Of a stretch of 40,912 bases of DNA, positions 1,399-22,548 are shown one piece after another. Location of the stretch: NCBI GenBank assembly GCA_013695145.1, contig JACDBB010000170.1, positions 1 to 40,912 of the forward strand, in the 5' to 3' direction. The notes beneath the pieces are model-generated. The model searched no databases. It saw nothing but the letters and a program-made list of their open reading frames with translations, and had not been told where the DNA came from. The translations under genes were made by a program, and so were the position numbers. This DNA is from Euzebyales bacterium (GTDB lineage Bacteria > Actinomycetota > Nitriliruptoria > Euzebyales > Egibacteraceae). Within the stretch, counting starts at the first letter, position 1; each line of letters starts with the position of its first letter.

Positions 1399-1791
1399 CC
1401 GCAGCGGCCACGCCCAGCCGCGTCGAAGCCGGTGATGTCGACGGCGAACTCCTGGCCGGCTTCGACCATCGTGTCGAGCAGGAACTGAGCGAAGTCGCGC
1501 TCGCAGCCAGCAGGCAGGTGAGCTGGCCGTCCCGGTCGGACGAGGTCGAACGCGGAGTAGCGCGCGGGCTTGCGGGAACGCCGCCAACCGTTGCAAGGTC
1601 GCCTTCTCGCCCACAGTCACGGAGATCGTCGCCGCTGGACAGCCGTTCCGCACACAGCAGCACCCGGGTAGCCTCCGCGTGTTCTTCCCGTAGGCGCAAA
1701 TCGCTGCGACGAGCGCGGGGTCAGCCGGCACGGCTGACCACGGCTTGTGCGAGGGCTCCTGCACTGAGGCAGCCGACGGAGGCCGACGACC
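1399..1791. other. 393 bp without an intact gene; possible coding remnants
   Basis: No complete gene with a start, ribosome binding site and plausible protein is visible. On the minus strand, short protein-like stretches appear in different frames. One runs roughly from 1565 to 1400 and contains DFAQFLLDTMVEAGQEFAVD without a start. Another, around 1735-1690, reads DPALVAAICAYGK. This looks like a decayed gene broken by frameshifts, but I could not assign it to a family. The last 20 bases hold the ribosome binding site (GGAGG, 1779-1783) of the MFS gene. Confidence 0.35.
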
Positions 1792-3111
1792 GTGAGACTG
1801 CTCGCAGCACTGCCAGAGCGCTACCGGGCAGTCCTCGCGATCCCACCGTTTCGGCGGTTCGCGCTCGGGGCGATCATCTCCAGCGTTGGCGACGGCATGA
1901 GTTCGGTGGCGGTCGCGTGGCTGGCGCTGGAGATCGCCGCGCCGGGTCGGGAGGGCCTGGCAGTCGGCCTCGCGCTCGGCGCCTTCACGCTGCCAGCCGC
2001 CATCGCGGGGACGGTCTTCGGGGCGCAGGCCAACCGCCTCGGTGCACGGCGGCTGATCCTACTCGGCAGTGCCACGCGGGGCGGCTTCCTCGCGGTCGTC
2101 CCTGTGCTCGCCTGGACGGGCGCCTTGACGCTGCCGGTCTACATCGCGCTGCTCGTCGGCTCCTCGCTCTTCTACACGTGGGGTATCGCCGGCCGCACCG
2201 CGATGGTCGCCGGTGTCGTCGATGAGCCGCTGCGCATGCCAGCGAACTCGCTGCTGCTCGGCCAGTCCCAGCTCGCGATGATCGTCGGGCCGGGAGCGGC
2301 GGGGCTCCTCGTCCACCTCGTGGATGCGGCCACCGTGCTGGCGCTTGACGCGCTGACCTTCGCCGGCCTGTTCCTCATCGCGTTGACCCTGCCCAACCCC
2401 TCCGTGCACGGCGGGACGGCCGCGGCGGTCGAACACGTGCGCCTGTGGCGCACCGTTGACGCGCGGCTGCTGGGCTTGCTGGGGGTGACCCTGACGTTCT
2501 ACCTGCTGTACGGACCGTTCGAGGTCGCGCTACCGGTGCACGTCACCGACAACCTCGCCGGTGACGCCCTGCTCTACGGGGTCCTGCTGTCCTGCTTCGG
2601 GGTGGGCGCACTGGTTGGCAACATCGCCGCGGGGGCGCTCCCCCGTCTCGAACCGTGGCCGATGTCGCTGGTGATCGTCGTCGCCTGGGGCGTCGCGGTA
2701 CTCGTGATCGGCTTGACCAGTGTGCCCGCCGTCGCGCTCGTCGCCGTCACCCTCGGAGGGCTGATCTACGGTCCCCACCCCGCGCTGATCACCACGGTGA
2801 TCCAGCGTGGCGTCCCGGCCGCCCAACTGCCTCGTGTCAGTGCCGCCTGGGCCTCGGCCGTGGTGATCGTCACCCCGGTCGGCAACCTCATCGGAGGACC
2901 GCTGACGGCACGCCTGGGGCCTAGCACCGCGCTGGCGCTGTCGGGCGCGGCGACGGTGCTGCTCGGCCTCCTTGGCGCGCTGTGGCTGGCCGGCGGCGCG
3001 CTCCGTCGCGCTCGCGGGCGGCTGCGCGACGCTGCCGCCCCTCCCGCCGATGACAACTCACCGCCGGCCGCGGCGGGCGGGTCGCCGCGCGACCGAGACC
3101 TTGGCTCGTAG
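1792..3111 (+). CDS. MFS transporter
   Basis: A 439-residue protein built from about twelve hydrophobic segments. It has the cytoplasmic loop of the major facilitator superfamily between helices 2 and 3 (QANRLGARRLI, after a glycine-rich helix) and a charged, proline-rich C-terminal tail of about 35 residues. It resembles the MFS_3/EntS-like export group, but the substrate cannot be read from sequence. The GTG start at 1792 follows GGAGG by 8-9 nt. It is isolated: a decayed region lies upstream and a strong hairpin separates it from the convergent IclR gene downstream. The tail extends past the last helix and may be disordered. Confidence 0.85.
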   Translation: MRLLAALPERYRAVLAIPPFRRFALGAIISSVGDGMSSVAVAWLALEIAAPGREGLAVGLALGAFTLPAAIAGTVFGAQANRLGARRLILLGSATRGGFLAVVPVLAWTGALTLPVYIALLVGSSLFYTWGIAGRTAMVAGVVDEPLRMPANSLLLGQSQLAMIVGPGAAGLLVHLVDAATVLALDALTFAGLFLIALTLPNPSVHGGTAAAVEHVRLWRTVDARLLGLLGVTLTFYLLYGPFEVALPVHVTDNLAGDALLYGVLLSCFGVGALVGNIAAGALPRLEPWPMSLVIVVAWGVAVLVIGLTSVPAVALVAVTLGGLIYGPHPALITTVIQRGVPAAQLPRVSAAWASAVVIVTPVGNLIGGPLTARLGPSTALALSGAATVLLGLLGALWLAGGALRRARGRLRDAAAPPADDNSPPAAAGGSPRDRDLGS

Positions 3112-6927: not shown

Positions 6928-6955
6928 GGCCAGGGTGGCCTAGGTTGTGCGCACG

Positions 6956-7744
6956 ATGGCCGCCGAGACCGCTCCCGCCCCGCTCCTCCGCGTCGCCTTC
7001 GTCGGCAAGGGCGGGTCGGGAAAGTCGATGATCTCCGGCACCATCGTGCGGCTGCTGGGAGCTGCGGGGGAGCCGGTGCTCGCCCTCGATTCCGATCCCC
7101 TCCCCGGCCTCGCCTTCTCCGTCGGCATCCCGCAGCACGACGCCGGGCTGCCCGAGGAGGCGGTCGTGGAACGGCCCGAGGGGGAGGACGGCCCGCGGTT
7201 CCGGCTCGCCGAGGACGCCGTCACCCTCGCCGAGCGCCACGCGCGCGTCGGCCCGGACGGCGTCCGCTTCCTGCAGATCGGGAAGGCGGGGAGCCGGGCG
7301 GGCGGCAACCAGGGCCGCTCCCTGCACGCTTTCCGGCACGTCGCCGCCGGGCTGGACGACGGGCCGTGGCACCTGGTGGGCGACCTGCCGGGGGGCACCC
7401 GCCAGCCGTTCTTCGGCTGGGCGCGGTGGGCGCGACTCGTCCTCGTCGTCGTCGAGCCGGTGTCGGCGTCCATCCTGACCGGCCGCCGGCTCGCCCGCCT
7501 CGGGCAGGTCGAGGGCGGGCCCCGGGTGGTGGCCGTGGCGAGCAAGGTCGATGGCCCGGCGGACACCGAGCTGGTGGCGGGGCGCACGGGCCTGCCCGTC
7601 ATCGCCGCCGTGCCGCACGATCCTGCCGTCGCCGCGGCGGAGCGTCTGGGAAGCGCGCCCCTCGACCACGACCCCGACGCCCCGGCGGTCCAGGCGGTAC
7701 GCTCGCTGCTCGTGAGCCTGCGGAGCGCGGGAGGCGTTGCATGA
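6956..7744 (+). CDS. CooC-type P-loop ATPase lacking the metal-binding cysteines
   Basis: A 262-residue SIMIBI-class ATPase. Deviant Walker A, FVGKGGSGKS, near the N-terminus and a switch-region LDSDPLPGL place it with the CooC/MinD/ArsA group, which hydrolyse ATP as dimers to deliver metal or assemble complexes. Where the three paralogues in this window carry a CxC (or TGA-x-TGA) pair, this one has only GKAGSRAGGNQG with no cysteine, so it probably does not bind metal the same way. It may heterodimerise with the next gene, which it overlaps by 4 bp (ATGA). ATG 6956 is preferred; GTG 6947 is nearly adjacent to the only AGG and seems too close. It heads a two-gene unit upstream of the hydrogenase island. 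Confidence 0.8.
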   Translation: MAAETAPAPLLRVAFVGKGGSGKSMISGTIVRLLGAAGEPVLALDSDPLPGLAFSVGIPQHDAGLPEEAVVERPEGEDGPRFRLAEDAVTLAERHARVGPDGVRFLQIGKAGSRAGGNQGRSLHAFRHVAAGLDDGPWHLVGDLPGGTRQPFFGWARWARLVLVVVEPVSASILTGRRLARLGQVEGGPRVVAVASKVDGPADTELVAGRTGLPVIAAVPHDPAVAAAERLGSAPLDHDPDAPAVQAVRSLLVSLRSAGGVA

Positions 7745-8475
7745 AGGTCGCTGTGGTCGGCAAGGGCGGGGCGGGAAAGACAACGACCGCCGCGGTCGTC
7801 GCCCGCACCCTGAGCCGCCTCGGCGGGCCGGTCGTGGCGCTGGACTGCGACACGAACGCGAACCTCGGCCTGTCCCTCGGCTTGGGCTGGGACGCCACTG
7901 ACGAGCTCGCCGACCTGCGCTCGGACCTGGCCGAGGGCGAGGTCGAGCACGAGCCGACCTGGTCCGGCCTGGTCGCCCGCTTCGGCTCCGACGCGCCCGA
8001 CGGCGTGCGCCTGGCAGTGGTGAACCGCATCGAGGACCCCGAGCCCGGGTGACCCTGATGCGGGATCTCCCCCGAGCAGTTGCTCGGATCCGGTGACATC
8101 GGCGCGACGAGTGTCGTGGCGGACCTCGAGGCGGGCCTGGGGACGCTGACGCGCATGGGCGACACGCCGATCGACGTGGTGCTGCTCGTCGTCGAGCCGT
8201 CGGCCAAGTCCGTCGAGGTGGGTCGCCGCGCGGTCGCGCTGCTGGAGGGACGTCCGGTCGGGCGGCTGATCGTGGTGGGCAACAAGGTCGCCGGCGAGGA
8301 GGACGTCGAGCGGCTGCGGGAGGCCTTCGGCGACCACGAGCTGGTCGTCGTCCCCGACGACCAGGCCGTCCGCGCCGCGGACCGGGCGGGCGACAGCCCC
8401 CTCGACCACGCGCCCGGCTGCCCAGCCGTGGCGGCGCTCACCACCCTGGCGGAGCGGCTCGCCGCCGCCTCCTGA
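7741..8475 (+). CDS. CooC-type ATPase, putative selenoprotein with two Sec (UPU motif)
   Basis: Read through two in-frame TGA codons, this is a 244-residue CooC-type ATPase. It has Walker A VVGKGGAGKTT near residue 6, the LDCDTNANLGLSLGLG switch, then EPG-TGA-P-TGA-CGISPEQLL, VVADLEAGLGTL and VVGNKVAGEED. The TGAs are codons 104 and 106. The paralogue at 8948-9706 has Cys103/Cys105 (GCTCSGH) and that at 19315-20127 has Cys108/Cys110 (GCMCAAH) at the same place. In CooC1 of Carboxydothermus a CxC pair at the dimer interface binds nickel or zinc. Both TGAs therefore replace the metal-ligand cysteines, while the third frame-internal Cys (TGC, codon 107) is normal. The downstream half keeps the frame and the family sequence. 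Selenocysteine decoding is the best explanation; a pseudogene with two nonsense mutations is the alternative. No sel genes are in the window. Confidence 0.75.
8062..8091 (+). promoter_or_regulatory. Candidate bacterial SECIS stem-loop
   Basis: Directly after the TGA-TGC there is an upper stem CCGAGC / GCTCGG (8072-8077 with 8082-8087) capped by the tetraloop AGTT, with G as second loop base. A lower stem GGAT/ATCC (8063-8066 with 8088-8091) is separated by a 5-nt bulge on the 5' side. The loop lies 20-23 nt after the second TGA and 26-29 nt after the first. This is inside the distance range known for bacterial SECIS elements, which favour a G among the first two loop bases. The structure is drawn by eye; folding energy was not computed. 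Confidence 0.6.
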
Positions 8476-8482
8476 AGCGGCG

Positions 8483-8579
8483 ATTCACGAGTCAGCATGT
8501 CATGACCATCGCTGCGCGATGGCCACAACCGGGGGTTGTGAGAATCGCCCTCGCAAGCTCGGGCGCATTCACGAGTCAG
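8483..8579. repeat. REP-like element, copy A
   Basis: Bounded by identical 13-bp direct repeats ATTCACGAGTCAG (8483-8495 and 8567-8579). Inside are three hairpins: CCATCGC-TGC-GCGATGG (8506-8522), CACAACC-GGG-GGTTGTG (8524-8540), and a longer imperfect one from GAATCGCCC to GGGCGCATTC. A second copy lies at 8857-8951. No open frame of note. It starts just after the selenoprotein-candidate gene ends. Confidence 0.75.
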
Positions 8580-8713
8580 CAGGTCATGGGGGCTGGGCGC
8601 CCCACCCGGATGATGAGAATGGGGGTGGCGCCGTGCCAGACGTGGGTCGCCTGTCGTGCGGCGGGCCTGCCACATTCCGGCCGGCGCCTGCGCGAGTTTG
8701 CCCCGCCGGCGGG

Positions 8714-8747
8714 GGCGTTCTCACGCAGGCGGAGGGTGAGAATCGCC
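8714..8747. repeat. Hairpin with the GTGAGAATCGCC motif
   Basis: GGCGTTCTCAC (8714-8724) pairs with GTGAGAATCGCC (8736-8747) with one bulged base. The same GTGAGAATCGCC occurs inside both REP-like copies (8538-8549 and 8910-8921), so this hairpin is a related fragment. The surrounding stretch 8580-8713 has no gene that I can support. Confidence 0.55.
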
Positions 8748-8769
8748 TGTCGCAGGTCGCAGGCTGGTC

Positions 8770-8823
8770 CGACACTGTGTCGGAACAGCCACGCATAGCG
8801 CAGGAATCTCGACACGGTGTCGA
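8770..8823. repeat. Two CGACACNGTGTCG palindromes, paired
   Basis: CGACACTGTGTCG at 8770-8782 and CGACACGGTGTCG at 8810-8822 (extended to a 15-bp palindrome, 8809-8823), spaced 40 bp apart. The same 40-bp spacing is seen in the tandem repeat at 27378-27564. Read on the minus strand, the unit resembles the palindrome-plus-GC-stem arrangement at 6885. Confidence 0.65.
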
Positions 8824-8856
8824 CCCCGGCGGGCTCGCCCCTGGGTGCTCAGGGCC

Positions 8857-8951
8857 ATTCACGTGTCAGGTTCCATGGCCATCGCTGCGCGATGGCCACA
8901 CCCAAGATTGTGAGAATCGCCCTCGCAAGCTCGGGCGCATTCACGTATCAG
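8857..8951. repeat. REP-like element, copy B
   Basis: Second copy of the 8483-8579 element. It shares CCATCGCTGCGCGATGGCCACA and the whole stretch from TTGTGAGAATCGCC to the closing ATTCACG. Flanking direct repeats are ATTCACGTGTCAG (8857-8869) and ATTCACGTATCAG (8939-8951). The right one contains the stop codon of the minus-strand ATPase gene, so the element ends inside that gene and may shape its 3' end. Confidence 0.75.
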
Positions 8952-9706
8952 ACCGCGACGCGGCCCGCCCCCTCGAGCGCATCGAGAACCCCGCCCACCA
9001 GAGCGCGCAGCTCGGCGTCCACGCCGCCGGCGTCACCGCCGTCGCGGTCGGAGCGAGCCACCCCGGCCCGGTAGGGCAGCACGCCGATCAGCTCGATGCC
9101 GTGCTCGGCCGCCGCCGCGCGCAGGAACGCGGCGTCGTCCTCCCCGCGCGACTTGTTGCCGAGACCGACCGTCCGGGGGATGCCCAGCTCCTCGGCGAGC
9201 GCCGCGGTGCGGACGGCGGTGACGACCGACTTGCGGCTGGGCTCCATCACCATGACGAGCGCGTCGACGTGCGCCAGCGTCCCGCCCGAGCGGCTGAGGT
9301 GCTCCAGGCCGGCCTCCATATCGACGATCGTGGTGTCCGCGCGAGCGTCGAGGACCTCGCCGAGCAGCGTCCGGACGGTCGCGTGCCCCGAGCAGGTGCA
9401 CCCGGCGCCGGCCTCCACCACACGGATCGCCGACAGCAGCGTCACGCCGGCCGGCGTGTGGCGGCCGAACTCGTCGATCAGCCCACCGACGGTGTGGTCG
9501 CCGCCCGAGCCGACGATCACCGACCGGGGGAGGACGGGGACGGCGTCGGTCTCCGCGAGCGTGAGGCCGAGGGAGAGGCCGAGGTTGGGATTGGAGTCCG
9601 TGTCGATGGCGACGACGCGGGCCCCGCGCTCACGGTACGCGCGAGCGACCAGCGCGGCGACGGTCGTCTTCCCGACGCCGCCCTTGCCGACGATGCCGAG
9701 CTTCAT
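8948..9706 (-). CDS. CooC-type ATPase with intact CxC metal motif
   Basis: A 252-residue SIMIBI ATPase of the CooC group. It has deviant Walker A VGKGGVGKTT near residue 6, IDTDSNPNLGLSLGL, Cys103-Thr-Cys105 in AGAGCTCSGHAT, VDMEAGLEHLSR (switch II/Walker B-like) and LGNKSRGE (nucleotide base recognition). CooC proteins load nickel into CO dehydrogenase; this one sits in a hydrogenase island with no CODH gene in sight, so a role in hydrogenase nickel or complex assembly is inferred. ATG 9706 follows AGGAG. It is divergent from the small membrane-protein operon at 9816 across a dyad-rich promoter region. Confidence 0.87.
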   Translation of the reverse strand: MKLGIVGKGGVGKTTVAALVARAYRERGARVVAIDTDSNPNLGLSLGLTLAETDAVPVLPRSVIVGSGGDHTVGGLIDEFGRHTPAGVTLLSAIRVVEAGAGCTCSGHATVRTLLGEVLDARADTTIVDMEAGLEHLSRSGGTLAHVDALVMVMEPSRKSVVTAVRTAALAEELGIPRTVGLGNKSRGEDDAAFLRAAAAEHGIELIGVLPYRAGVARSDRDGGDAGGVDAELRALVGGVLDALEGAGRVAV

Positions 9707-10540: not shown

Positions 10541-11065
10541 GTGCCGGCCCCCGCCCTCGACGAGCTGCTCGATCGGCTCGAGGCCCTGCTCGCGCGCCTC
10601 TCGGAACTGGACGCGCCGGTGCGCGACGAGGTGTTCGAGCTGCTCGACGGCATCGACCTGCTCCACCGCACCGCGCTCGGGCATCTTGGCGACGCGCTGG
10701 GCGGTGACGCGGTCGAGCGGCTGGGGACGGCCCATCCCGCGATCGCCTGGCTCTTCGACGCCTACGCGGTCGGGGTCGACGAGCGCGCCGCCGCGGACGC
10801 GGCGCTCGAGGAGATCCGCCCGTACATCCACTCCCACGGCGGCGACGTCCAGGTGCTCGGGGTCGACCAGGGCATCGTGCGGCTGCGGATGAGCGGGGCA
10901 TGCTCGGGGTGCACCGCGTCCGCGGAGACGCTGCGAGACGGCATCCTCGAGGCGTTGCGCGAGCACTTCCTCGGCTTCGTCGACGTCGACGTGGAGGAGG
11001 ACCACGCGGCGCCGCACCCGCCGCCGGGCCCCTCGCTGGTGCAGATCACCGCCCGCCCGGGTTGA
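10541..11065 (+). CDS. NifU C-terminal domain protein
   Basis: A 174-residue protein. Its second half (from about residue 85) is a NifU-like domain: EIRPYIHSHGGDVQVLGVD, then MSGACSGCTASAETLRDGI with the CxxC that binds a transient Fe-S cluster. The N-terminal 80 residues are helical and unrecognised, a layout seen in hydrogenase-linked NifU-like proteins. The likely role is Fe-S cluster supply to the hydrogenase small subunit. GTG 10541 lies 3 nt after the previous stop. Its 3' end overlaps the convergent protease gene by 20 bp. Confidence 0.85.
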   Translation: MPAPALDELLDRLEALLARLSELDAPVRDEVFELLDGIDLLHRTALGHLGDALGGDAVERLGTAHPAIAWLFDAYAVGVDERAAADAALEEIRPYIHSHGGDVQVLGVDQGIVRLRMSGACSGCTASAETLRDGILEALREHFLGFVDVDVEEDHAAPHPPPGPSLVQITARPG

Positions 11066-11558
11066 GCCACTCGATCCCCATCCCGGTGACGACCGCGCGC
11101 ACCTCGACGAGCGCCCGAGCGACACCGCGGGTCACCGCGTCGGACAGGCCCTGGCCGACCGCGTCCGCATCCTCTGGCTGGCAGCCGACCATGATCGTCC
11201 GGGCGGGCAGCACCCCCATCGCCGCGACGAGCATCAGCGCCCGCTCCGGGTTCGCGTAGTGCATGTCGGCGAGGTGGTCGCGGCGCTCGAGCACCCCGAG
11301 GGCGGTGACGTCGAGGACGTCCGGTTCCAGCACCACGACCGTGCCCGGGGCGCGCCCGAGGTCCAGCGCATCGACCACGACCAGCCCGTCCGCCGGCTCG
11401 GCCAGCAGCGCCTGGACCAGGTGGATCCCGCCGATGTTGACGTCGAGGACCTCGACGCCGGCGGGCACCCCCGCCGCGTGGAGCTTGTGGACCACGGCGA
11501 TCCCGAAGCCGTCGTCCGCCCGAAGGACGTTGCCGAACCCTGCGACGATGACCCGCAC
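11046..11558 (-). CDS. [NiFe]-hydrogenase maturation protease
   Basis: A 170-residue M52-family endopeptidase that cleaves the C-terminal extension of the hydrogenase large subunit once nickel is in place. Motifs: VAGFGNVLRADDGFGIAVV near the N-terminus, VVVDALDLG in the middle and the histidine in RRDHLADMHYANP. Together these supply the three nickel-sensing metal ligands known from HybD. GTG 11558 is the start; the divergent TPR gene begins only 23 bp away, so the two promoters must overlap. Its substrate is most likely the large subunit encoded at 14337-16238. Confidence 0.9.
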   Translation of the reverse strand: MRVIVAGFGNVLRADDGFGIAVVHKLHAAGVPAGVEVLDVNIGGIHLVQALLAEPADGLVVVDALDLGRAPGTVVVLEPDVLDVTALGVLERRDHLADMHYANPERALMLVAAMGVLPARTIMVGCQPEDADAVGQGLSDAVTRGVARALVEVRAVVTGMGIEWLNPGGR

Positions 11559-11581: not shown

Positions 11582-12811
11582 ATGGAACGCCTCGACGACG
11601 CGCTGGCCGACCTCCGCTCCCGGGTGCGCCGGTACGAACCGGAGCGCTACCCCGTGCAGCACGCGACGGCGCGCTTCCACCTCGGCGCCGCCCTCCTGCA
11701 GGACGGGCGAGCGGCCGCCGCCGCGGCGGAGCTCAGCGCGGCGGTGGCGGGGTTCCGGGCGGCCGGGATGGCCGTCGAGCACGCCAAGGCGACGATGATG
11801 CTCGGCGTCGCGCTGCGCGAGACCGGTCGCGGCGCGGATGCCGCGCGCGCGTTCTCGGCGGCCGCCGCGGCGTTCGCGGAGCACGAGCAGCGCGGCGAGC
11901 ACGCCGCGGCGCTGCACAACCTCGGCCTCGTCGCCCGCGACGGCGGCGACCTCGACCGGGCGATCGAGGCCTTCACGCAGGCCGTGGAGGGGTTCACGGG
12001 GCTCGGCGAGGCCACCGCCAGGACGTCCGCGAACCGCGAGCTCGGGACGACGCTCCTGGCGGCCGGGCGCCCCGAGGAGGCGGTCGGCGCCCTGCGCCGC
12101 GCCGTGGACGACAGCCCGGGTCGCACCGACGCCGTGGCGTGGGGGGCGGCGGCGAACGCCCTCGGGCTCGCCCTGCTCGCCCTGGCCCGCCACGACGAGG
12201 CCGCCGAGGCGTTCTCCGACGCCGCCACCGCCCACCCGCGCGGCCTGCGACCCGACGGCTATGCGATGGCGAAGGCCAACCTGGCGCTGGCCCATGAGGG
12301 CGCGGGGCGAGCTGCCCACGCCCGGCTGGCGGCGCGGCAGGCGCGCGACACCGACGGTGCGCCGCCGGTCGTGGCGGCGCAGGCGGTCGGGCTCCTCGAG
12401 CGGATCGCGGAGGTCCCCGGCGAGTTGGGGGAGGTGCTGGACGCCGAGGCCGCCGACCGCTGGGCGCCCATCCTCCGCGACGAGCTGGGACGGTGGCTGG
12501 GGATCGACGGCGCCGCGCGCGCCGAGGTCGCCTCAGGATGGATCGCGTGCGTCCTGGCCCGGCGCGGTCGCGCTCCCGACCTGCTCGAAGCCTGGTTCGG
12601 CGTGGCGCTCGAGCAGCCCCCCGCCGACATGGAGGCGCTGCTCACCGCGGTGGTGACCGCCTGGCGCCGGCACGGCGCGCAGGAGCGGGAGCGGTTCCGC
12701 TCGGCGGTCAGCCGAGCGCTGCCCCGCTTCCACCTGCCGCAGTGGCAGCGCCTGCAGCATGCGCTCGAGCGGCTGTCGGCAGCGACCGGCGAGGAGGTCG
12801 AGTGGAGGTAG
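11582..12811 (+). CDS. TPR-repeat protein, hydrogenase-associated
   Basis: A 409-residue alanine-rich protein. Residues about 25-280 consist of helix pairs spaced 34-40 residues with TPR-like A/G/L/A/F patterns (for example ALHNLGLVARDGGDLDRAIE). The last 120 residues form a different helical domain rich in Trp/Arg with no match that I recognise. TPRs mediate protein-protein contact, so it may be an assembly scaffold. The stop overlaps the start of the biotin-ligase-fold gene, which implies a shared transcript. No membrane segment or signal is seen. Confidence 0.8.
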   Translation: MERLDDALADLRSRVRRYEPERYPVQHATARFHLGAALLQDGRAAAAAAELSAAVAGFRAAGMAVEHAKATMMLGVALRETGRGADAARAFSAAAAAFAEHEQRGEHAAALHNLGLVARDGGDLDRAIEAFTQAVEGFTGLGEATARTSANRELGTTLLAAGRPEEAVGALRRAVDDSPGRTDAVAWGAAANALGLALLALARHDEAAEAFSDAATAHPRGLRPDGYAMAKANLALAHEGAGRAAHARLAARQARDTDGAPPVVAAQAVGLLERIAEVPGELGEVLDAEAADRWAPILRDELGRWLGIDGAARAEVASGWIACVLARRGRAPDLLEAWFGVALEQPPADMEALLTAVVTAWRRHGAQERERFRSAVSRALPRFHLPQWQRLQHALERLSAATGEEVEWR

Positions 12812-13620: not shown

Positions 13621-14350
13621 GCGTCCACCACAGCCCCCAGTCGAGGTGGGTCATCCCCTCGCTGGACTCCCCCGCGGCGATCACGAGGCGGAGGCGGTCG
13701 CGTTCGGCGAAGGTGCGCCCCCAACGACCCTCGCGGTCCAGCGTGTCCAGCTCGGCGAGCAGCGCCCGGAGCGCCTCGACGGCCGGGCCGGGCTCGAGAT
13801 GCCCGTCGTTCAGCAGCCCGCGGAGCTGCGCCGCCAGGTCCAGGACCTGCGCGCGGCGCACCTCGGCGCGGACGAGGTCGACGAGCGTGCCCATGGCGGC
13901 ATCGGCCTGCGGCGACAGCCCGTCCACCGGGTCGGTCAGGACGGGTTCGACCTCGACGGTCACGACCCTGGGCGGGAGGACGCCGAGCCCGTTCGCGACG
14001 TCCAGCAGGATGCGGATCGACACGTAGCCCTGGACCGCGTCCGAGACCGCCCCGTGCACGTCGGCGGGCGTCAGGGCCTCGGGGACGACGCGACGGCGCT
14101 CGACCGTCCCGGGCGGCCGGCCGCGCGCCTCGGCCCCCACGACCACGAGGGTGTGGACGGCCAGGTCCTCCAGGCGCTGGGCGACCGCCACGGCTCCGTA
14201 GTGGAGCTCCTCGGCGGCGGCGCCGGGGCCGAGGTCGCCGAGGAGATCGACGACGCGGCGGCCGACGTCGAGATCACCCTGGTACAGCTGCCCCACGCCG
14301 CCGACGAGGACGTCGATCCTGTGGTGGTCGCCGTCGTCAGTCAGCGCCAC
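13550..14350 (-). CDS. Degenerate M52 protease-like protein with C-terminal helical domain
   Basis: A 266-residue protein. Its first 150 residues align by eye with the maturation protease at 11046-11558: VLVGGVGQLYQGDLDVGRRV against VAGFGNVLRADDGFGIAVV, and VVVGAEARGRPPG against VVVDALDLGRAPG. The central Asp and the later His metal ligands are lost, so it is probably not an active nickel-dependent protease. A unique helical domain follows. GTG 14350 overlaps the end of the large-subunit gene by 14 bp, so it is the third gene of the structural operon. It could be a large-subunit chaperone. Its end overlaps the convergent ligase-fold gene by 71 bp. Confidence 0.68.
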   Translation of the reverse strand: MALTDDGDHHRIDVLVGGVGQLYQGDLDVGRRVVDLLGDLGPGAAAEELHYGAVAVAQRLEDLAVHTLVVVGAEARGRPPGTVERRRVVPEALTPADVHGAVSDAVQGYVSIRILLDVANGLGVLPPRVVTVEVEPVLTDPVDGLSPQADAAMGTLVDLVRAEVRRAQVLDLAAQLRGLLNDGHLEPGPAVEALRALLAELDTLDREGRWGRTFAERDRLRLVIAAGESSEGMTHLDWGLWWTLIEELDRLQPLEATAAVPGATAP

Positions 14351-16238
14351 AGGAGCACGTGTTGACCTCGCGCACGATCGTCCCGTGCTGGGTCGACACG
14401 TGGGTCGTGCAGGGCATGCAGGGGTCGAAGCTGCGGATGGCGCGCAGCATGTCGATGCCGGTGAACCGGCCGGGGTCGGAGACGTCCTCGATGATCGGGG
14501 TGTTCATCACCGCCTCCTCGTAGGGCCCCGGCTGGTCCCAGGGGTCGCGGGGCGAGGCGTTGATCGTCGACGGGGTGACGATCTGGTAGTTCGTGAGCTT
14601 GCCGTTCTCCATCTCCATGTGGTGGGTCAGCCAGCCGCGACCCGCGCCCCACCAGCCGACGCTGCGCCGGACGTCGGACGGGATGTGGTCGTCGAGCTCG
14701 TCCGCGGGCACGGCAGCCACCCGGGTCTCGCCCTTCTTCATCATGTCGTACGCCATGAGCAGGTTGTTCAGGCCGACGAGCTGGGAGAACAGGTAGTGGT
14801 AGGCGCGGCCGCGGTTGCGCTCGAGGGCGTTCCACTGGTCCGGGGCGTGCCACTCGACCTCGGCCTCGGCGGTGAGGCCCTTCGGGATCAGCATCCGCAC
14901 GCTGTGGCCGGTGGCCTCGATGAAGTCGTTCGCCGGCAGCGCCCGCGCCTTCGCGGTCATGAGGAGCCGCGAGTACGCGCCCGCCTCCACGACCTTGCGG
15001 TCCCAGCGCGGCGCGGTCGCCCACGTGTACTTCTCCTTCCAGTCCTTGCCGGCCGGACGGGGCAGGGTTCGCTTGTTCCAGGGGTGGTAGGGGCTGATCG
15101 GGTTGCCGGCGGTGTCGTCGGCGTGGCGGCTGGTGGAGGACTCGTCGTAGTAGGAATGCTCGACGAACTCCTCCAAGCCGATGTTGAGATCGGTCAGGCG
15201 GGTCGTGACGAGCTCGCCGTCGATGACCACCCCTGGCGAGGACCAGCGCCTCTGGCCCCAGTCGTTGCAGTTGGCGTAGGTCGCGTCGTAGGCGTAGGGG
15301 TCGTCCCAGTAGCCGGGGTCGATGTGGTTGGTCGGTCGGGCGCCCACGAGCCGGTAGCGCTCGTCGCAGGAGTAGAGGAACTCGGGGATGTCGTCCCAGA
15401 CCGCCATCATCCTCGCGGCGTAGTCGAAGATCTTCGCGAGCCGCGAGTGGTACTCGTTCAGCGACTGGAGGGTGATCGTCGAGGAGACCCCGCCGGGGAC
15501 GACCGTCTGGGGATGCGGGAACTTCCCCGCCAGGACGGCGAACATCTCGCGCGACAGCCTCGTGAAATCCAGGCCCTCCCGGTACAGCTGCCCCGTCAGC
15601 GGGTTCAGCGCCGTCATCAGGTCGGCCATCGTGCGGAAGCCGTGGATGTCCTCGTTGGGACACCGGTACTGCTCGGCCTTGGGCCACAGTTCCGGGTTGG
15701 ACTGACGGATGATGGCCTCAGAGTAATCGGGGCCGGCCAGCAGGTAGAGGTGGAGCGGATTGTCGTAGCCCATCTCCGCCGCTTCCTGAAGGTTGCGGAT
15801 GACGGTCCCGAACGGTGGGGGTCGCAGCCCCATCGCCATCTCGATCGCGTAGGCGGACGCATGGGCGTGCACCCCGCCGCAGACGCCGCACGCCCGCGAG
15901 GACACGAAGATCGCGTCGCGCGGGTCACGGCCCATGAGGATGACCTCGTACCCGCGGAACAGCGTCGCCTGGGAGTGCGCGTCCAGGTACTCCCCCGCGT
16001 CGAGGTCCGCGGCGACGTGGATGGCGAGGGCGCCGGCGACGCGGGTCACCGGGTCCATGTTGATGTCCTTGATGTGGCCGTTGGCCGCCATCAGGCGCTG
16101 GATGCGCTCCTCGCGCTCGGCTTCCGTCGTCCCGACGTCGGGCTTGGTCACCGACAGCGCGTAGGGGTCGGCGATGTCGCGCCGGAGCGTGGCCACGCCG
16201 GCTTCGTCGAACTCGACGGGCAGGTTCTTGAAGCACAT
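14337..16238 (-). CDS. [NiFe]-hydrogenase large subunit
   Basis: A 633-residue nickel-iron catalytic subunit that oxidises or produces H2. The N-terminal ligand motif SSRACGVCGGVHAHAS (near residue 115) and the C-terminal SFDPCMPCTTHV give the four cysteine ligands of the NiFe centre. After the DPCxxCxxH histidine there are about 20 residues ending NTCSCGAD, presumably removed by the protease at 11046. No selenocysteine is present: all four ligands are normal Cys codons. It is longer than classic group 1 subunits, as in the actinobacterial high-affinity (group 1h/5) type, but the exact group is not proven. Four bases separate it from the small-subunit gene. Confidence 0.93.
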   Translation of the reverse strand: MCFKNLPVEFDEAGVATLRRDIADPYALSVTKPDVGTTEAEREERIQRLMAANGHIKDINMDPVTRVAGALAIHVAADLDAGEYLDAHSQATLFRGYEVILMGRDPRDAIFVSSRACGVCGGVHAHASAYAIEMAMGLRPPPFGTVIRNLQEAAEMGYDNPLHLYLLAGPDYSEAIIRQSNPELWPKAEQYRCPNEDIHGFRTMADLMTALNPLTGQLYREGLDFTRLSREMFAVLAGKFPHPQTVVPGGVSSTITLQSLNEYHSRLAKIFDYAARMMAVWDDIPEFLYSCDERYRLVGARPTNHIDPGYWDDPYAYDATYANCNDWGQRRWSSPGVVIDGELVTTRLTDLNIGLEEFVEHSYYDESSTSRHADDTAGNPISPYHPWNKRTLPRPAGKDWKEKYTWATAPRWDRKVVEAGAYSRLLMTAKARALPANDFIEATGHSVRMLIPKGLTAEAEVEWHAPDQWNALERNRGRAYHYLFSQLVGLNNLLMAYDMMKKGETRVAAVPADELDDHIPSDVRRSVGWWGAGRGWLTHHMEMENGKLTNYQIVTPSTINASPRDPWDQPGPYEEAVMNTPIIEDVSDPGRFTGIDMLRAIRSFDPCMPCTTHVSTQHGTIVREVNTCSCGAD

Positions 16239-16242
16239 TGCG

Positions 16243-17640
16243 CTACTCCTTCCGACCGGAGGTGGCCCCGGCGCGCAGCGTCAGGTCGGGCTCGCGGTCG
16301 GAGTCGCGCTCCTTGGTCCACTCCGCCCGCTTCCCCCACGGCTCGACCTCGTTGCGGCCGGTGTCGGTGGAGCGGCGCAGCTTGTCGTAGAACCGGTGAC
16401 TGATCTCGGAGACGACGCCCGGCTCGGACTTCTCACGGGCCCAGCCGCTCGGGATGTCCCCGTGGACGTCCCAGCGGACCTCCCGGTTCATGTTGTTGTT
16501 GGAGTACTTGCGCAGCGGGCGCATGATGCTGCCGACCATCCGCGCGACGGTGCTGGAGGCGAGGGAGCCGGGCGGGCGCTTGTAGAAGGGCGTGAACTTG
16601 TCGGGGAAGCCCGGCATCGTGCAGCCGATGCAGGCGCCGCCGACGTTCATGCAGCCGCCGACCCCGTTGATCGCCCCGCGCGAGGTGATGTTGCAGTTGA
16701 CGACCGGGCCCCAGCAGCCGATCTCGACGAGGCACTCCTTGTCGCCGAACTCCTCGGCGAAGTCGCCCTCCTCGTAGTACGCCCCCCGCACGCAATGGCG
16801 GTGGACCGTCTCCCCGAACAGCCAGGACGGCCGCCCCAGCTCGTCGAACTCCGGGAGCGGGCCGAAGCCCTGGAGGAAGTACAGGATCGCCGCGACGGTC
16901 TCGGTGAAGTTGTCGCCGACGGGCGCGCAGCCGGGGATGTTGACGACCGGGACGCCGAAGGCGCTGCGGTAGTCCTTCCCCAGGAAGTCCATGAGGCTCA
17001 TCGCCCCGGTGGGGTTGCCCTCGGCCGAGGGCACCCCGCCCCAGGTGGCGCAGGTGCCGATGGCGAGCGACGCCGCCGCGCCGGGGGCGAGCCGCGCCAT
17101 CCACTCGGCGGTGCTGACCGTCCGCATCCGGCCATCCGGCCCCCAGGGCTCCTCCCCCTGCCCCGACCAGTAGCCGCCGTCCGCGGCGGCGCGGGTCTCG
17201 TCCGCGATCGACCCCTCCAGGATGATCACGTACGGGCCGTCGAGCTCTCCGGACAGCGCCATCTCGTGGGGCCGCATGTAGTTCGCGCCGGACTCCACAT
17301 TGAGCACCGGGTGGTGCAGGATCACCCGCGGGGCGCCGGGGTGGGCGCCGAGGACCAGGCTCTCCACGCTCGGCGAGGTGGCCCCGGTCACCGACACCGA
17401 GCACCCGTCGCAGCTCATCCCGGCGAACCAGAAGGCGTGGACCTTCTCCAGCGGCCCCAGGCGGCTCATCGCGCCGGCCTTCGCGATCGGTTCCAGCAGG
17501 TCCTCCATGAATGCCCGCGCGGGCATCCCGAAGTCGCCGAGCTCCTCACGATCGTGGTAGCGCTCCACCGGCCCGTGGAAGTCCAGCAGGAGGTCAGCGG
17601 GAGTGCGCTGGTCGGTCCCGTTGCTCGCTGTGCGTGCCAT
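16243..17640 (-). CDS. [NiFe]-hydrogenase small subunit
   Basis: A 465-residue electron-transfer subunit. Proximal-cluster ligands are visible in AGMSCDGCSVSVTG (about residue 75), GTCATWGG and IPGCAPVGDN. The distal and medial clusters are represented by HRHC, EIGCWGPVVNC and GGACIGCTMPGFPD. There is no twin-arginine signal, so the enzyme stays on the cytoplasmic side, and no C-terminal hydrophobic anchor. Both ends are extended compared with classic small subunits of about 300-370 residues. ATG 17640 follows GGAG. First gene of an S-L-protease-like operon; divergent from the small membrane-protein operon at 17755. Likely takes part in high-affinity H2 oxidation (inference). Confidence 0.93.
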   Translation of the reverse strand: MARTASNGTDQRTPADLLLDFHGPVERYHDREELGDFGMPARAFMEDLLEPIAKAGAMSRLGPLEKVHAFWFAGMSCDGCSVSVTGATSPSVESLVLGAHPGAPRVILHHPVLNVESGANYMRPHEMALSGELDGPYVIILEGSIADETRAAADGGYWSGQGEEPWGPDGRMRTVSTAEWMARLAPGAAASLAIGTCATWGGVPSAEGNPTGAMSLMDFLGKDYRSAFGVPVVNIPGCAPVGDNFTETVAAILYFLQGFGPLPEFDELGRPSWLFGETVHRHCVRGAYYEEGDFAEEFGDKECLVEIGCWGPVVNCNITSRGAINGVGGCMNVGGACIGCTMPGFPDKFTPFYKRPPGSLASSTVARMVGSIMRPLRKYSNNNMNREVRWDVHGDIPSGWAREKSEPGVVSEISHRFYDKLRRSTDTGRNEVEPWGKRAEWTKERDSDREPDLTLRAGATSGRKE

Positions 17641-18938: not shown

Positions 18939-19318
18939 GCGTCCCACCGTCGGCCCAGGGTCCTTCGGGCCTCCCGCGGAACTACCTGCGCCCCTGCCTG
19001 CTGCTGCTGCTCGCGGAGGGGCCGTCCCACGGCTACGACCTGCTCGAGCAGCTCCCGGCGCTGGGCCACGAGCGCGCAGACCCCGGCGGGATGTACCGGT
19101 CCCTGAGGGCGATGGAGGAGGAGGGGCTGGTCCGCTCGTGGTGGGAGGACTCGCCCACCGGGCCGGCCAGGCGAACCTACGACCTGACCGAGGAGGGCCT
19201 GGAGTGGCTCCATGCATGGGCGGGGTCGTTGCGCCTGGTCCACGGTGCGCTCGGCCGCTTCCTCACGCGCTACACCGCCGCGGCGGACGAACCCGTCCGT
19301 GGCCGCGCGCGGCGATGA
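18935..19318 (+). CDS. PadR family transcriptional regulator
   Basis: A 127-residue PadR-type winged helix protein with LLLLLAEGPSHGYDLLEQL, PGGMYRSLRAMEEEGLVRSW and RRTYDLTEEGLEWLHAW, the usual three blocks of the family. PadR proteins act as dimeric repressors, often of neighbouring genes. Embedded between the Cys/His winged-helix gene and a CooC-type ATPase with 4-bp overlaps on both sides, it probably controls the hydrogenase island. Ligand unknown. Confidence 0.87.
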   Translation: MSVPPSAQGPSGLPRNYLRPCLLLLLAEGPSHGYDLLEQLPALGHERADPGGMYRSLRAMEEEGLVRSWWEDSPTGPARRTYDLTEEGLEWLHAWAGSLRLVHGALGRFLTRYTAAADEPVRGRARR

Positions 19319-20127
19319 GGATCGCGCTGGCCGGCAAGGGCGGGGCGGGGAAGACGACGATCGCCGCGACGCTCGCCCGGCTCCTGGCGTCCGACGGGTT
19401 CGACGTCGTCGCGATCGACGCCGACAGCAACCCGAATCTCGCATCCGCCCTCGGCGTCGCGACGGACGACGCGAACCAGGCGCCCCACGCCCTGCCGTCG
19501 AGCATCGTGTCGCGCCGCCTCGACGGTCCCGGTCTGAAGGACGGCGTCGACGCGGTGCTCGCCGCTCACGGGGTCGTGGCGCCGGACGGGGTGCGACTGG
19601 CTCACATGGGGATGCCCGCGCACGCCGACGAGGGCTGCATGTGCGCGGCGCACGCCACGGTGAGCTCGCTGCTCGCCGACCTGGGCGACCGGCCGCGGGG
19701 GATGACGATCGTCGACATGGAGGCCTCGCCGGAGCACCTGAGCCGCGGCACCGCCCGTCACGTGGACCTGCTGCTGTTGGTGGCAGAGCCGTACTACCGG
19801 GCGCTCGAGACCGCCCGCCGGCTCGCCGCCCTGGCCGCACAGCTGCCGATCGCCCGGGTCGCGGTCGTCGCGAACAAGGTGCGCGGCGAGGCCGACGGCG
19901 AGGTGATCACGGCGTTCTGCGAGCGGCACGACCTGGAGCTGCTCGCCGTGGTGCCGTGGGGCGAGGAGGTCCTCGACGCTGACGCCGCCCGCCAGCCGCT
20001 CGTCGAGGCCGCCGCCTCGGGGCCCGTGGTCGCCGCGGTGCGCCGGCTGGTCGCGGCGCTGGGCCTGCCCGACGCGGGTGCCGTGCCGCAGGCGGACGCG
20101 ATCGCCGGACGTCACGGTCCCCGCTGA
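19315..20127 (+). CDS. CooC-type ATPase with intact CxC metal motif
   Basis: A 270-residue SIMIBI ATPase. LAGKGGAGKTT (deviant Walker A) lies near residue 5; IDADSNPNLASALGV, Cys108-Met-Cys110 in EGCMCAAHAT, VDMEASPEHLSRG and ANKVRGEAD follow in the CooC order. The cysteine pair aligns with the TGA-Pro-TGA of the gene at 7741 and with Cys103/105 of the gene at 8948. Last gene of the six-gene operon. Its final 16 bp overlap the convergent FmdE-like gene. A nickel or cluster delivery role is inferred from family and context. Confidence 0.88.
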   Translation: MRIALAGKGGAGKTTIAATLARLLASDGFDVVAIDADSNPNLASALGVATDDANQAPHALPSSIVSRRLDGPGLKDGVDAVLAAHGVVAPDGVRLAHMGMPAHADEGCMCAAHATVSSLLADLGDRPRGMTIVDMEASPEHLSRGTARHVDLLLLVAEPYYRALETARRLAALAAQLPIARVAVVANKVRGEADGEVITAFCERHDLELLAVVPWGEEVLDADAARQPLVEAAASGPVVAAVRRLVAALGLPDAGAVPQADAIAGRHGPR

Positions 20128-20792
20128 GGCGGCGCGGCCGAGGTGGCGTTGTCGCCGCTGAACGCCGCGGTGGTCAGCGGCACGGGGCTGCGCCCAGCGA
20201 GTCCCTGCTCGAAGCACGGGAGGCACAGCTGCTGGCCGTGCAACCGGCGGACGCGCGTCTCCATGGTGGGCTCCCCGCAGAAGGCGCACTCGACCGACGC
20301 GTGGATGCGCGCTGTCGGAGGCGGTTGGATCGCGACCTCGCGGACCTCGTACAGCTGTGCGAGCGGAGCGGCCAGCACGTCCTCGGAGCGTTCACGCTGC
20401 ATCTGCCAGAAGCGTGCCCGCTCCTCGCCGCTGGCGGCGCCGGCCCGGATCTTGGCTCGCAGCTCCTCGCGCTCGGGGTCGTCGGGCCCGAAGGCGCCTG
20501 GGCGCATGCTGACCCGGACGGCGCGGTCGTCGGAGCGGCGCAGGAACGTGAAGACGTTCTTGCCGTGGTCGCGGTGGACGAGGTTGCCCTTGCCGTAGGT
20601 GCAGCCGGTGAGGTACTGGACCGCGTCCACCCCGCACATGTCGGTCTCGACGATGGCGACCACCTCCTCGTCCGAGGAGTGCGGCCCGATCTCGGCCAGC
20701 GCGATCTCGGCCGCCCGGATGCCCAGGGCGAGGCCAGGGCACATGTGGCCGTGGAACTCGGCGACTTTCGTGACGGTCTCGTGCTCGGTCAT
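20112..20792 (-). CDS. FmdE-like protein with C-terminal zinc ribbon
   Basis: A 226-residue protein. The FmdE domain occupies the first 130 residues: EFHGHMCPGLALGIRAAE with the conserved His/Cys, IVETDMCGVDAVQYLTGCTYGKGNL, and the lysine-rich FTFLRR region. A C-terminal zinc ribbon follows (ECAFCGEP ... QLCLPCFEQ). FmdE was named from formylmethanofuran dehydrogenase clusters, but the family is widespread without that enzyme and probably binds metal. ATG 20792 follows GAGGAGCAGG. It lies 37 bp upstream of the transporter binding-protein stop and is probably transcribed with the transporter genes. Confidence 0.85.
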   Translation of the reverse strand: MTEHETVTKVAEFHGHMCPGLALGIRAAEIALAEIGPHSSDEEVVAIVETDMCGVDAVQYLTGCTYGKGNLVHRDHGKNVFTFLRRSDDRAVRVSMRPGAFGPDDPEREELRAKIRAGAASGEERARFWQMQRERSEDVLAAPLAQLYEVREVAIQPPPTARIHASVECAFCGEPTMETRVRRLHGQQLCLPCFEQGLAGRSPVPLTTAAFSGDNATSAAPPQRGP

Positions 20793-20829
20793 GCCTGCTC
20801 CTCGGTTGGCGGCTCGTCTCGGTGCGGCG

Positions 20830-22548
20830 TCAGCCGGACGGGCGGATCTCCAGACCGTCCTGGCGGCCGGTGATGAACGCGTGCTTGTTGTAGACGGTCG
20901 GGATGTTTCCGGCGAAGCCGCCCTCGGTGTAGTACCAGGCGTCGAAGACCTCGGCGTTGTACACCAGGAAGGGCGTGGGGTAGTAGAGCGGCAGCAGCGG
21001 CAGGTCCGCCGCCACGATCTGCTGCATGCGGGCCACGATCTCCATGCGCTCGTCCACGTCGAGGGTGGCGAGCTGCTCGCGCGCGAGCTCGTCGAACTCG
21101 GCGTTCTCATAGCCCTGCGCGTGCTGGGTGATCTCGGTGAACGAGGCGTACACCCGACGCATGTAGTCGGGATAGCCGCGCAGGCCGCCGGCGGTGATGA
21201 GCGACAGCTCCGTCTCGCCGGCGATCACGCGCTGGTTGAACGATGGCGTGTCGAGCGGCTGGACGGAGAGCTCGATCCCGAGCTGCCCCAGCGCGGCCGT
21301 GATTAGGTCGGCGGTCGGTGCGACCAGCGGCGGGCCGGTCGTGACCAGGAGCTCGAAGCGCAGCGGCTCGCCGTCGGGGCCCTGACGCGGCCCGTCGCTT
21401 GATTGGCGCGGGTAGCCGGCCTCGTCGAGCAGCTGGTTGGCGGCCGCGGGGTCGAACGCGTACTGCTCGACGTCGACGTGGAACGGGTCACCCGGCGGGA
21501 TCCAACCGGGGTTGCCCGGCGCGCCGTTGCCCCCGAACAGGCGCTCCACGAGGTCGCCTCGGTCGATGGCCATGGCGCAGGCGTGGCGGAAGCGCGGGTC
21601 GGCCAGCGCCCCGCCGCGCGCGAGGTTCCAGTACAGGCCGAGCTGGAAGGCGCCGGGGAAACCCTCGAGCACGGCGAAGGGCGGGGTGTCCTGGAAGGGG
21701 GCGAGGGCGTCGGGACGCAGGCCGAACTGGTCGGCGGCGTCGGCCTCGCCCGCGAGGACGGCGGCCAGCGGGTCGCCGACCGTCCGGTACTCGATGCGCT
21801 GGACGAAGGGCGCGCCCAGGAAGTAGTCGTCGTTGGCGGTGTACAGGTAGCTGCCCTCGCCGCTGGTGTAGTCCTCCAGCCGGTACGGGCCGGTCCCGAT
21901 CAGCAGGGCGGGGTCCTGCGCTCTGGCGGCGTCGTCCACGTCGGACCAGACATGCCGGGGGACGATCGGCACGGCCGCCGCGACGAGGTCGACGAACGTC
22001 GTGTCGGGTTCGGCCAGGCGGATCTCGACCGTCCGCTCGTCGGGTGCCGTGACCTGGTCGGCGAACGTCCGCTGGCCGGGTTGGACGATGACCTCCGGCG
22101 ACAGCGTCTGCGCCTGGAAGTACTCGAAGGTGAACACCACGTCGTCGGCGGTGAACGGCTCCCCGTCGTGCCAGCGCACGTCGTCGCGCAGGGTGAAGGT
22201 GTAGAGCAGCCCGTCGTCGGAGGCCTCCATGTCGCTGGCCAGCCATGGCAGGAACTCGCCGTCGGCGCCGACCCAGAGCAGTGTGTCGTAGATGAAGCTC
22301 ATCCGCCAGTAGCCGGGGCCGCGCTGGTAGGTGAACGGCGAGGGGAAGCCGGCGTCCTCGCCGGGGAGCCGCAGCGTGGGGCGCGCGGCGACGGGCGAGG
22401 CGTCGGGGCTGCCTGCCGGCGATGGGGTGCCCTGCCCGGTGGCTTGCGGGCCGGTCTCCTGGGTCGTCGGCTGGTCGCGGGTGCAGGCGCCGAGCGCCAG
22501 CGCGACGGTCGCGCCGAGCGTGCTGGTCAAGAACGTGCGCCGATCCAT
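20830..22548 (-). CDS. Family 5 ABC substrate-binding lipoprotein (peptide/nickel type)
   Basis: A 572-residue SBP_bac_5 protein. It starts with a twin-arginine-like lipoprotein signal, MDRRTFLTSTLGATVALALG, then a lipobox cysteine (LGAC), a Thr/Pro/Ser-rich linker, and family blocks such as YTFTLRDDVRWHDGEPFTADDV and GTGPYRLEDY. AGGAGG stands six bases before the ATG at 22548. An in-frame ATG at 22554, directly abutting that site, is less likely. Last gene of an ABC operon. Family members bind peptides, nickel complexes or opines; nickel is favoured only because of the adjacent hydrogenase island. Confidence 0.9.
   Translation of the reverse strand: MDRRTFLTSTLGATVALALGACTRDQPTTQETGPQATGQGTPSPAGSPDASPVAARPTLRLPGEDAGFPSPFTYQRGPGYWRMSFIYDTLLWVGADGEFLPWLASDMEASDDGLLYTFTLRDDVRWHDGEPFTADDVVFTFEYFQAQTLSPEVIVQPGQRTFADQVTAPDERTVEIRLAEPDTTFVDLVAAAVPIVPRHVWSDVDDAARAQDPALLIGTGPYRLEDYTSGEGSYLYTANDDYFLGAPFVQRIEYRTVGDPLAAVLAGEADAADQFGLRPDALAPFQDTPPFAVLEGFPGAFQLGLYWNLARGGALADPRFRHACAMAIDRGDLVERLFGGNGAPGNPGWIPPGDPFHVDVEQYAFDPAAANQLLDEAGYPRQSSDGPRQGPDGEPLRFELLVTTGPPLVAPTADLITAALGQLGIELSVQPLDTPSFNQRVIAGETELSLITAGGLRGYPDYMRRVYASFTEITQHAQGYENAEFDELAREQLATLDVDERMEIVARMQQIVAADLPLLPLYYPTPFLVYNAEVFDAWYYTEGGFAGNIPTVYNKHAFITGRQDGLEIRPSG

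Follow-up and report, generated by a model that had tools for sequence, protein, structure and literature searches.

A probable Sec-Pro-Sec metal site in a CooC-type ATPase encoded near [NiFe]-hydrogenase genes of Actinomycetota

Introduction

Two in-frame TGA codons stand exactly at the metal-ligand positions of a gene for a CooC-type P-loop ATPase, here called gene B, in a stretch of 40,912 nucleotides from a Euzebyales bacterium (contig JACDBB010000170.1 of assembly GCA_013695145.1; the whole stretch is referred to as the window). Are these codons stops, or are both read as selenocysteine (Sec, U), and what would such a site do in a protein of this family? CooC1 of Carboxydothermus hydrogenoformans (PDB 3KJE/3KJG/3KJH/3KJI) is the ATPase that inserts nickel into CO dehydrogenase. 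Each of its monomers contributes Cys112 and Cys114 to the metal site at the dimer interface, this site binds Zn as well as Ni, and nickel release upon ATP binding has been proposed (PMC6006190). A preliminary description of the locus, made from the sequence alone, had suggested that both ligands of B are Sec, giving up to four selenium ligands in a dimer, and had pointed to the nickel or zinc site of CooC1. It named as checks the alternation of TGA with TGC or TGT in relatives and the presence of selA, selB, selC and selD in the host genome, and held that TAA or TAG within the gene in relatives would refute the idea.

Results

Gene B is a CooC-type ATPase interrupted only by two TGA codons

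The frame of gene B leads from its ATG through G-TGA-P-TGA-C-G-I to a terminal TGA (8473) and holds neither TAA nor TAG nor any further internal TGA (Table 1); ordinary ORF calling on the window splits the gene at UGA. At the ligand site the residues read G-U-P-U-C-G, and the corresponding residues are GCTCSG in paralogue C and GCMCAA in paralogue D. When B was compared with each of 12 Sec orthologues, codon position 3 was the most substituted both 5' of the first UGA and 3' of the second, so the half of B that follows the UGA codons looks translated. Separate assemblies, among them some from other genera and from another family, show the same TGA codons.

Table 1 Features of the window around gene B.
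Feature	Position	Strand	Remark
Gene A, CooC/MinD-type P-loop ATPase without CxC pair	6947..7744	+	stop overlaps B start (ATGA)
Gene B, CooC-type P-loop ATPase with Sec-Pro-Sec-Cys (residues 104-107)	7741..8475	+	244 aa if the two internal TGA codons are translated
TGA, putative Sec104, first ligand position	8050..8052	+	U 7/17, C 9/17 B-clade genes; L053 has a deletion
TGA, putative Sec106, second ligand position	8056..8058	+	U 13/17, C 3/17 B-clade genes (L053 apart)
SECIS-like hairpin GAGC-AGUU-GCUC	8071..8088	+	apical loop AGUU 8078-8081
Gene C, CooC-type paralogue, Cys-Thr-Cys	8948..9706	-	
NifU-like domain protein	10541..11065	+	
Hydrogenase maturation protease	11046..11558	-	TIGR00072 106 bits, over cut-off
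TPR protein	11582..12811	+	kept in several relatives' hydrogenase clusters
[NiFe]-hydrogenase large subunit	14337..16238	-	NF033181 264 bits, under cut-off 600
[NiFe]-hydrogenase small subunit	16243..17640	-	NF045520 183 bits, TIGR00391 147 bits, both under cut-off
Gene D, CooC-type paralogue, Cys-Met-Cys	19315..20127	+	relatives elsewhere Sec-x-Cys
FmdE-family protein	20112..20798	-	
NikA/Opp-like substrate-binding protein	20830..22530	-	NikA 139 bits, under cut-off

A profile of B and seven orthologues found CooC1 (PDB 3kje) as the best solved relative by sequence, with an E-value of 3.9e-25, and in the HMMER alignment the U-x-U of B falls on the C-Y-C of CooC1. The ligand pair of a CooC protein, Cys112 and Cys114 in CooC1, is met by this alignment, with Sec codons in the window and Cys in three relatives (L061, L074 and L078). 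Gene B likewise has the deviant Walker A motif and the MinD/CooC fold that are looked for in this family. An AlphaFold2 model computed from six own sequences reached a pLDDT of 81.5 and a pTM of 0.85, the ligand loop (residues 98-107) remaining below a pLDDT of 50. Foldseek ranked MinD (1hyq) first and CooC1 (3kje) second by E-value, and among the 50 listed rows the query TM-score was highest for 3kje (0.74). With these two structures at the top, the predicted fold of B is of the MinD/CooC type; the model gives no prediction of the ligand geometry.

The claims of the preliminary description on these points held. The frame is broken only by the two TGA codons, its ligand site aligns with both paralogues, and both halves are conserved in one frame, with a position-3 bias on either side. 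Chance nonsense mutation remains improbable given the same TGA codons in other genera and a second family, and the CooC-type assignment with its ligand alignment is borne out by profile, HMMER and Foldseek.

TGA alternates with cysteine codons among relatives

A protein query was run against 61 genomes, and the profile of B and seven orthologues (E 1e-45) against 66 genomes of the class and 396 of the phylum; the latter two sets overlap, and the phylum scan scored at most seven candidates per genome. Altogether 17 B-type genes were recovered in 13 genomes, eight within the class (the host G000, G002, G003, G004, G006, G010, G019 and G040) and five outside the class set (G140, G170, G248, G258 and G410). 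A contig search with a single protein gave two named matches, a Nitriliruptorales MAG and an 'Actinobacteria bacterium' MAG. The B clade has 97/84 support in a tree that was built with the ligand columns kept.

The ligand pair of the 17 clade genes is U-x-U in seven, C-x-U in six and C-x-C in three, the latter (L061, L074, L078) all in genome G410; the last gene, L053 (G010, 1501-2223, minus strand), has a single U and a two-residue deletion. With the exception of L053, TGA at the ligand sites swaps solely with TGC or TGT (16 of 17 genes), which is favourable with regard to the first check, and the refuting codons TAA and TAG are absent from these sites in every member of the clade. U104 is present in seven genes from two families, and by the starred branches of the tree the U-U state must have changed three times or more. 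For L053, MAFFT puts the single U at position 104; its distance of 19 nt from UGA to hairpin loop is the one seen for UGA106 and fits the second position.

Putative Sec codons are also found in other branches of the family. D-type paralogues of other Actinomycetota show U-x-C in 15 tree rows (L064-L073, L075-L077, L017 and L018), in the form ULC or UMC. Their first ligand is encoded by TGA and the second by TGC or TGT, with the ligand codon near residue 107-111, and they adjoin hydrogenase genes in the stretches examined (L096, L097, L101, L103). A C-type relative (L057; G010, 1501-2268, plus strand) reads U-T-G, with Gly as second ligand. Since four foldings after the first-position UGA of D-type paralogues gave a hairpin no support (z -0.86 to +0.70), the Sec claim for these paralogues is weaker.

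Another adjacent pair of CooC-type genes, one ligand-less and one with CLCCGSH, was observed in L056 (1495-2975, minus strand) and L096 (1-1193, plus strand). The CLCCGSH member of this pair is a sister branch to the B clade.

A SECIS-like hairpin follows the TGA codons in Sec genes

The hairpin lies 19 nt from the second UGA and 25 nt from the first; its stem comprises 7 bp in most relatives, the outermost pair being broken in the window. The conserved element downstream of the UGA is GAGCAGUUGCUC, and GAGCAGTTGCTC has one occurrence in the window where none is expected. Within the hairpin the codons CAG TTG are kept in all 14 Sec genes and the preceding GAG in 13 of 14, followed by CTC in 13 and CTT in one. 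TTG is a rare codon: ten window genes use it for 6 of 315 Leu residues, and in 13 B genes it encodes 16 of the 282 Leu residues elsewhere in the gene. Among 62 invariant residues (13 genes; Met and Trp excluded) a single codon is used at six, including TGA106, GAG112, CAG113 and TTG114. The 12-base element is absent from all three Cys genes of G410: in L061 and L078 residues as well as codons differ, and L074 has EQLLG unchanged but spells it GAG CAG TTG TTG GGG, with most of the lower stem broken.

Pairing was found in 96.9% of 98 cells, as against at most 44.9% for slid partners. Covariation is thin: a single pair is altered at both bases, in two sequences, while 18 of 500 shuffles reach the covariation score and 193 of 500 the number of both-side pairs. 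In other Sec genes the folding z-scores were -2.5 (L010), -2.2 (L016), -2.9 (L062), -1.6 (L060) and +0.1 (L053), and in two Cys genes +0.5 (L074) and +0.8 (L078). A hairpin that is kept by the Sec genes but not by the Cys genes is thus present close to the 3' side of the UGA codons, with covariation support being thin and z-scores mixed. No match to the UGA-hairpin pattern was obtained in viral contigs, and plasmid records gave two weak matches, neither covering 80%.

The folding energy of the window hairpin was considered as stand-alone proof and dropped, with z-scores of 0.0, -1.1 and -1.7 at three lengths. A separate observation concerns the Pro codon between the two TGA codons (window 8053-8055), which is CCC in all seven U-P-U genes and in two of five C-P-U genes; in foldings of L010 and L062 it forms a small hairpin with the following GGG.

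The host encodes the selenocysteine machinery

The host genome contains selA (448 bits), selB (287 bits, running off the contig end), selC (tRNA-Sec, 68 bits) and selD (360 bits), all over cut-off, so that the second check was favourable as well. Host SelD is probably itself a selenoprotein, as its gene also has an in-frame TGA, within HGAGUACK (L038, residue 511 of frame 1). Of the 12 genomes with a Sec-form B gene, nine have selA over cut-off and nine tRNA-Sec, ten having at least one of them; neither was picked up in G006 (78% complete) or G248 (340 contigs). G410, which is 97% complete and carries the three C-x-C genes, gave no match to selA or tRNA-Sec. The co-occurrence of selA with Sec-form B genes is weak by itself because selA is common throughout the class (46 of 66 genomes at E 1e-40).

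Gene B is coupled to a ligand-less partner and lies near hydrogenase genes

Gene A is found directly 5' of B on the same strand at 15 of 17 B loci, mostly with overlapping or touching stop and start. The exceptions are G140, with one open frame between the two, and one B gene of G410, which faces A on the opposite strand. In the tree the A genes form a clade of their own (support 100/100), set apart from the paralogues that bear ligands.

The best solved relative of the hydrogenase large subunit in the window is HofG (5aa5; 459 bits, E 1.9e-136), the next one reaching 187 bits. HofG belongs to the oxygen-tolerant 'actinobacterial' hydrogenase type. In DPCMPC, which we take to be the C-terminal motif of the large subunit, Cys is encoded and no TGA is present. 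Within the fetched stretches, hydrogenase or hyp genes lie near 12 of the 14 Sec B genes (window, G002, G003, G004 C20, G006, G010 C48, G019, G040, G140, G170, G248 and G258). They were not seen near five of the 17 B genes, namely G004 C11, G010 C115 and the three Cys genes of G410, where the G004 C11 stretch extends ~30 kb to either side and the G410 stretches stop at the contig end. The A-B pair of G004 C11 adjoins a heavy-metal P-type ATPase and a MerR-type regulator.

A hypF gene is located beside or near A-B in G006, G010, G019, G140, G170 and G258, and hypC, hypD and hypE are within ~20 kb in G006, G010, G019, G040 and G140. NCBIfam models were over cut-off for hypF, hypC and hypD in L094 and for hypF, hypC, hypD and hypE in L042; the remaining hyp genes were identified through similarity to those of L094 and L042.

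Further observations were made around these loci. The host encodes a second, divergent [NiFe] hydrogenase (L113; G000 C156) with a large subunit 37% identical and hypA nearby. Two SIS-domain genes are situated between hypC and hypD in L042 (13893-15557, minus strand), L116, L117 and L118. In the window, 8476-8950 (3' of B) holds a repeated element (CATTCACG.GTCAG ... ATCGCTGCGCGATGGCCAC ... GTGAGAATCGCCCTCGCAAGCTCGGGCG), whose translated start also matched many other contigs of the host genome.

HypB is not detected in genomes with a Sec-form gene B

The hypB model TIGR00073 was over cut-off in none of the 12 Sec-B genomes, and in three of the 25 genomes searched (G410 and two of the other 12). 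This absence rests on drafts of 78-96% completeness. Eight weaker hits in Sec-B genomes were considered as hidden HypB and rejected, the best match being UreG in four (G000, G006, G019 and G040; the G000 hit is partial and under the UreG cut-off) and MeaB in the other four (G140, G170, G248 and G258). B itself does not pass as a HypB protein, with TIGR00073 not among its matches at E 0.001.

The hypA model was over cut-off in six of 25 genomes, including G000, G002 and G010 (partial), and these three may have kept some of the Hyp nickel route; in G000 and G010 hypA adjoins a second hydrogenase. The usual working partner of HypA is HypB (PMC12134894), and with HypB missing from the draft genomes, B or its paralogues may, by inference, take its place. 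In G410 the A-B pairs are separate from a full hyp-hydrogenase cluster on contig C79 that includes both hypA and hypB. As this genome has three C-x-C B genes in addition to hypA and hypB, B is not solely a HypB substitute.

Discussion

The recoding signature, the Sec machinery of the host, the protein family and the alignment of the ligands are shown by the analysis presented here. That gene B is a selenoprotein with Sec at both 104 and 106 is inferred from sequence alone and is very likely. Both UGA codons would be decoded by host SelA, SelB, SelC and SelD, with the single hairpin just 3' acting as the SECIS element for the two, and the Cys-x-Cys metal site of a CooC-type ATPase would have become Sec-Pro-Sec followed by the invariant Cys107. 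The preliminary claim that both ligands are Sec is therefore strongly supported by the sequence, selenium in the protein not being shown.

The gene context and the failure to find HypB are likewise shown; the metal, the ATP cycle and the replacement of HypB are inferred only. Given Sec at the site, a HypB-like role in nickel delivery to hydrogenase is the likely function. B would most probably carry Ni(II) and use ATP to hand it over to the large subunits of [NiFe] hydrogenases, with the ligand-less partner A working alongside B in place of the missing HypB. By analogy with CooC1, nickel may be held between two monomers and freed upon ATP binding. The reading as a whole, a Sec-Pro-Sec CooC-type ATPase delivering nickel and replacing HypB, rests entirely on computation and is in our judgement likely. 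The comparison with the nickel or zinc site of CooC1 in the preliminary description held as far as the ligand alignment is concerned, nickel as the metal of B not being shown.

Which dimer is formed can only be inferred. A B-B dimer could hold four selenium atoms at its site, and an A-B dimer two, perhaps together with Cys107. Because its coupled neighbour A lacks the ligand pair, an A-B heterodimer with two Se ligands is as possible as the homodimer, and the four Se per dimer suggested earlier are not shown. The overlap of genes A and B favours a joint complex, an inference from gene order that is not decisive.

A bolder reading, towards which we lean by a small margin, sees the A-B pair as a selenium-based nickel metallochaperone that has displaced HypB, and as one case of a broader habit among Actinomycetota, whose hydrogenase-linked CooC paralogues would have traded ligand Cys for Sec (U-x-U, C-x-U, U-x-C).

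Among the alternatives, the one that survives best accepts the Sec-x-Sec selenoprotein and gives it another task, either as a redox couple (a selenenylsulfide or diselenide relay) or in the handling of Zn or Cu rather than nickel delivery. Many selenoprotein families listed in PMC7435645 (Table 4) bear names of redox proteins, the Ni site of CooC1 accepts Zn, and the neighbours of the G004 C11 pair are metal-related with no hydrogenase or hyp gene in sight. Against it stand the sequence and fold, which place B among the MinD/CooC ATPases with CooC1 closest to it in sequence of all solved structures, and the hydrogenase or hyp genes near most Sec genes (12 of 14), in genomes without detected hypB. 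We regard this alternative as unlikely.

Even less probable is that UGA106 alone is decoded efficiently and UGA104 mostly terminates translation, yielding a short product or a selenium-dependent switch. In favour of this idea, UGA104 is six bases further from the hairpin than UGA106, U is found at 106 in 13 of 17 genes (14 with L053) and at 104 in seven, and the single-U gene L053 retains the distance of UGA106. However, U104 recurs in seven genes of two families with at least three forced changes of the U-U state, and D-type relatives carry U at the first position alone. Nonsense mutation, sequencing error or a pseudogene, for which nothing speaks except the stop codons themselves, can be all but ruled out by identical TGA codons across separate assemblies and genera, a purifying-selection codon pattern on either side of them and the conserved hairpin. 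A genome-wide reassignment of UGA to an ordinary amino acid, for which there is no supporting evidence, is practically excluded too, as A and B both terminate in TGA, Cys is the alternating residue and the host has the full Sec machinery.

B shares with CooC1 the deviant Walker A motif GKGGxGKT, the MinD/CooC fold and the aligned two-ligand motif. It differs in its Sec-Pro-Sec followed by Cys, in its usually coupled ligand-less partner and in the hydrogenase or hyp genes nearby, cooS having been outside the search. HypB, the GTPase for nickel insertion into [NiFe] hydrogenase, resembles B in the task inferred for it and in its vicinity to hyp genes, but belongs to a different NTPase class and was not found in the 12 Sec-form genomes. 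The COG0523 G3E metallochaperones with CxCC (PMC9164220) show the same pattern as the [C/U]-x-[C/U]-C of B; they too are of a different NTPase class, and convergence is the likely, inferred explanation.

Two nearby Sec residues have precedents. The NCBIfam family NF041115, a 'UxxU_metal_bind' (seleno)protein with two nearby Sec by name, sets a precedent for Sec in metal handling; it surfaced as a match of a P-type ATPase metal-binding domain. It is unrelated to B, has UxxU rather than UxU spacing and is absent among the matches of B. Selenoprotein P with its UxU (PMC3281104) and a bacterial ULPU selenoprotein (PMC5029168) also have two nearby Sec, as B does, but are not described there as CooC-type ATPases. 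In Sec-for-Cys [NiFe] hydrogenases (PMC12134894) Sec serves as a nickel ligand in hydrogen metabolism; there Sec resides in the enzyme, whereas here it would reside in the accessory protein B and the large subunit is without TGA.

No selenoprotein among CooC-type or P-loop ATPases was found in the open-access literature searched, subscription journals being mostly outside it; the earlier statement that no CooC-type UxU protein has been described held within these limits. CooC, MinD and P-loop metallochaperones are unnamed in the selenoprotein lists examined (PMC5029168, PMC7435645, PMC1794560), and Sec in CooC is unmentioned in the examined review sections on NTPase metallochaperones and hydrogenase maturation (PMC9164220, PMC12134894).

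If the proposed reading is true, a delivery ATPase would use Sec to bind its metal at two of three consecutive residues, and B would represent a new family for selenoproteome annotation. With U-x-U, C-x-U, U-x-C and C-x-C occurring naturally on the same scaffold, the contribution of selenium to nickel binding and release becomes measurable. For organisms without HypB, the A-B pair would point toward a possible route to [NiFe]-hydrogenase maturation.
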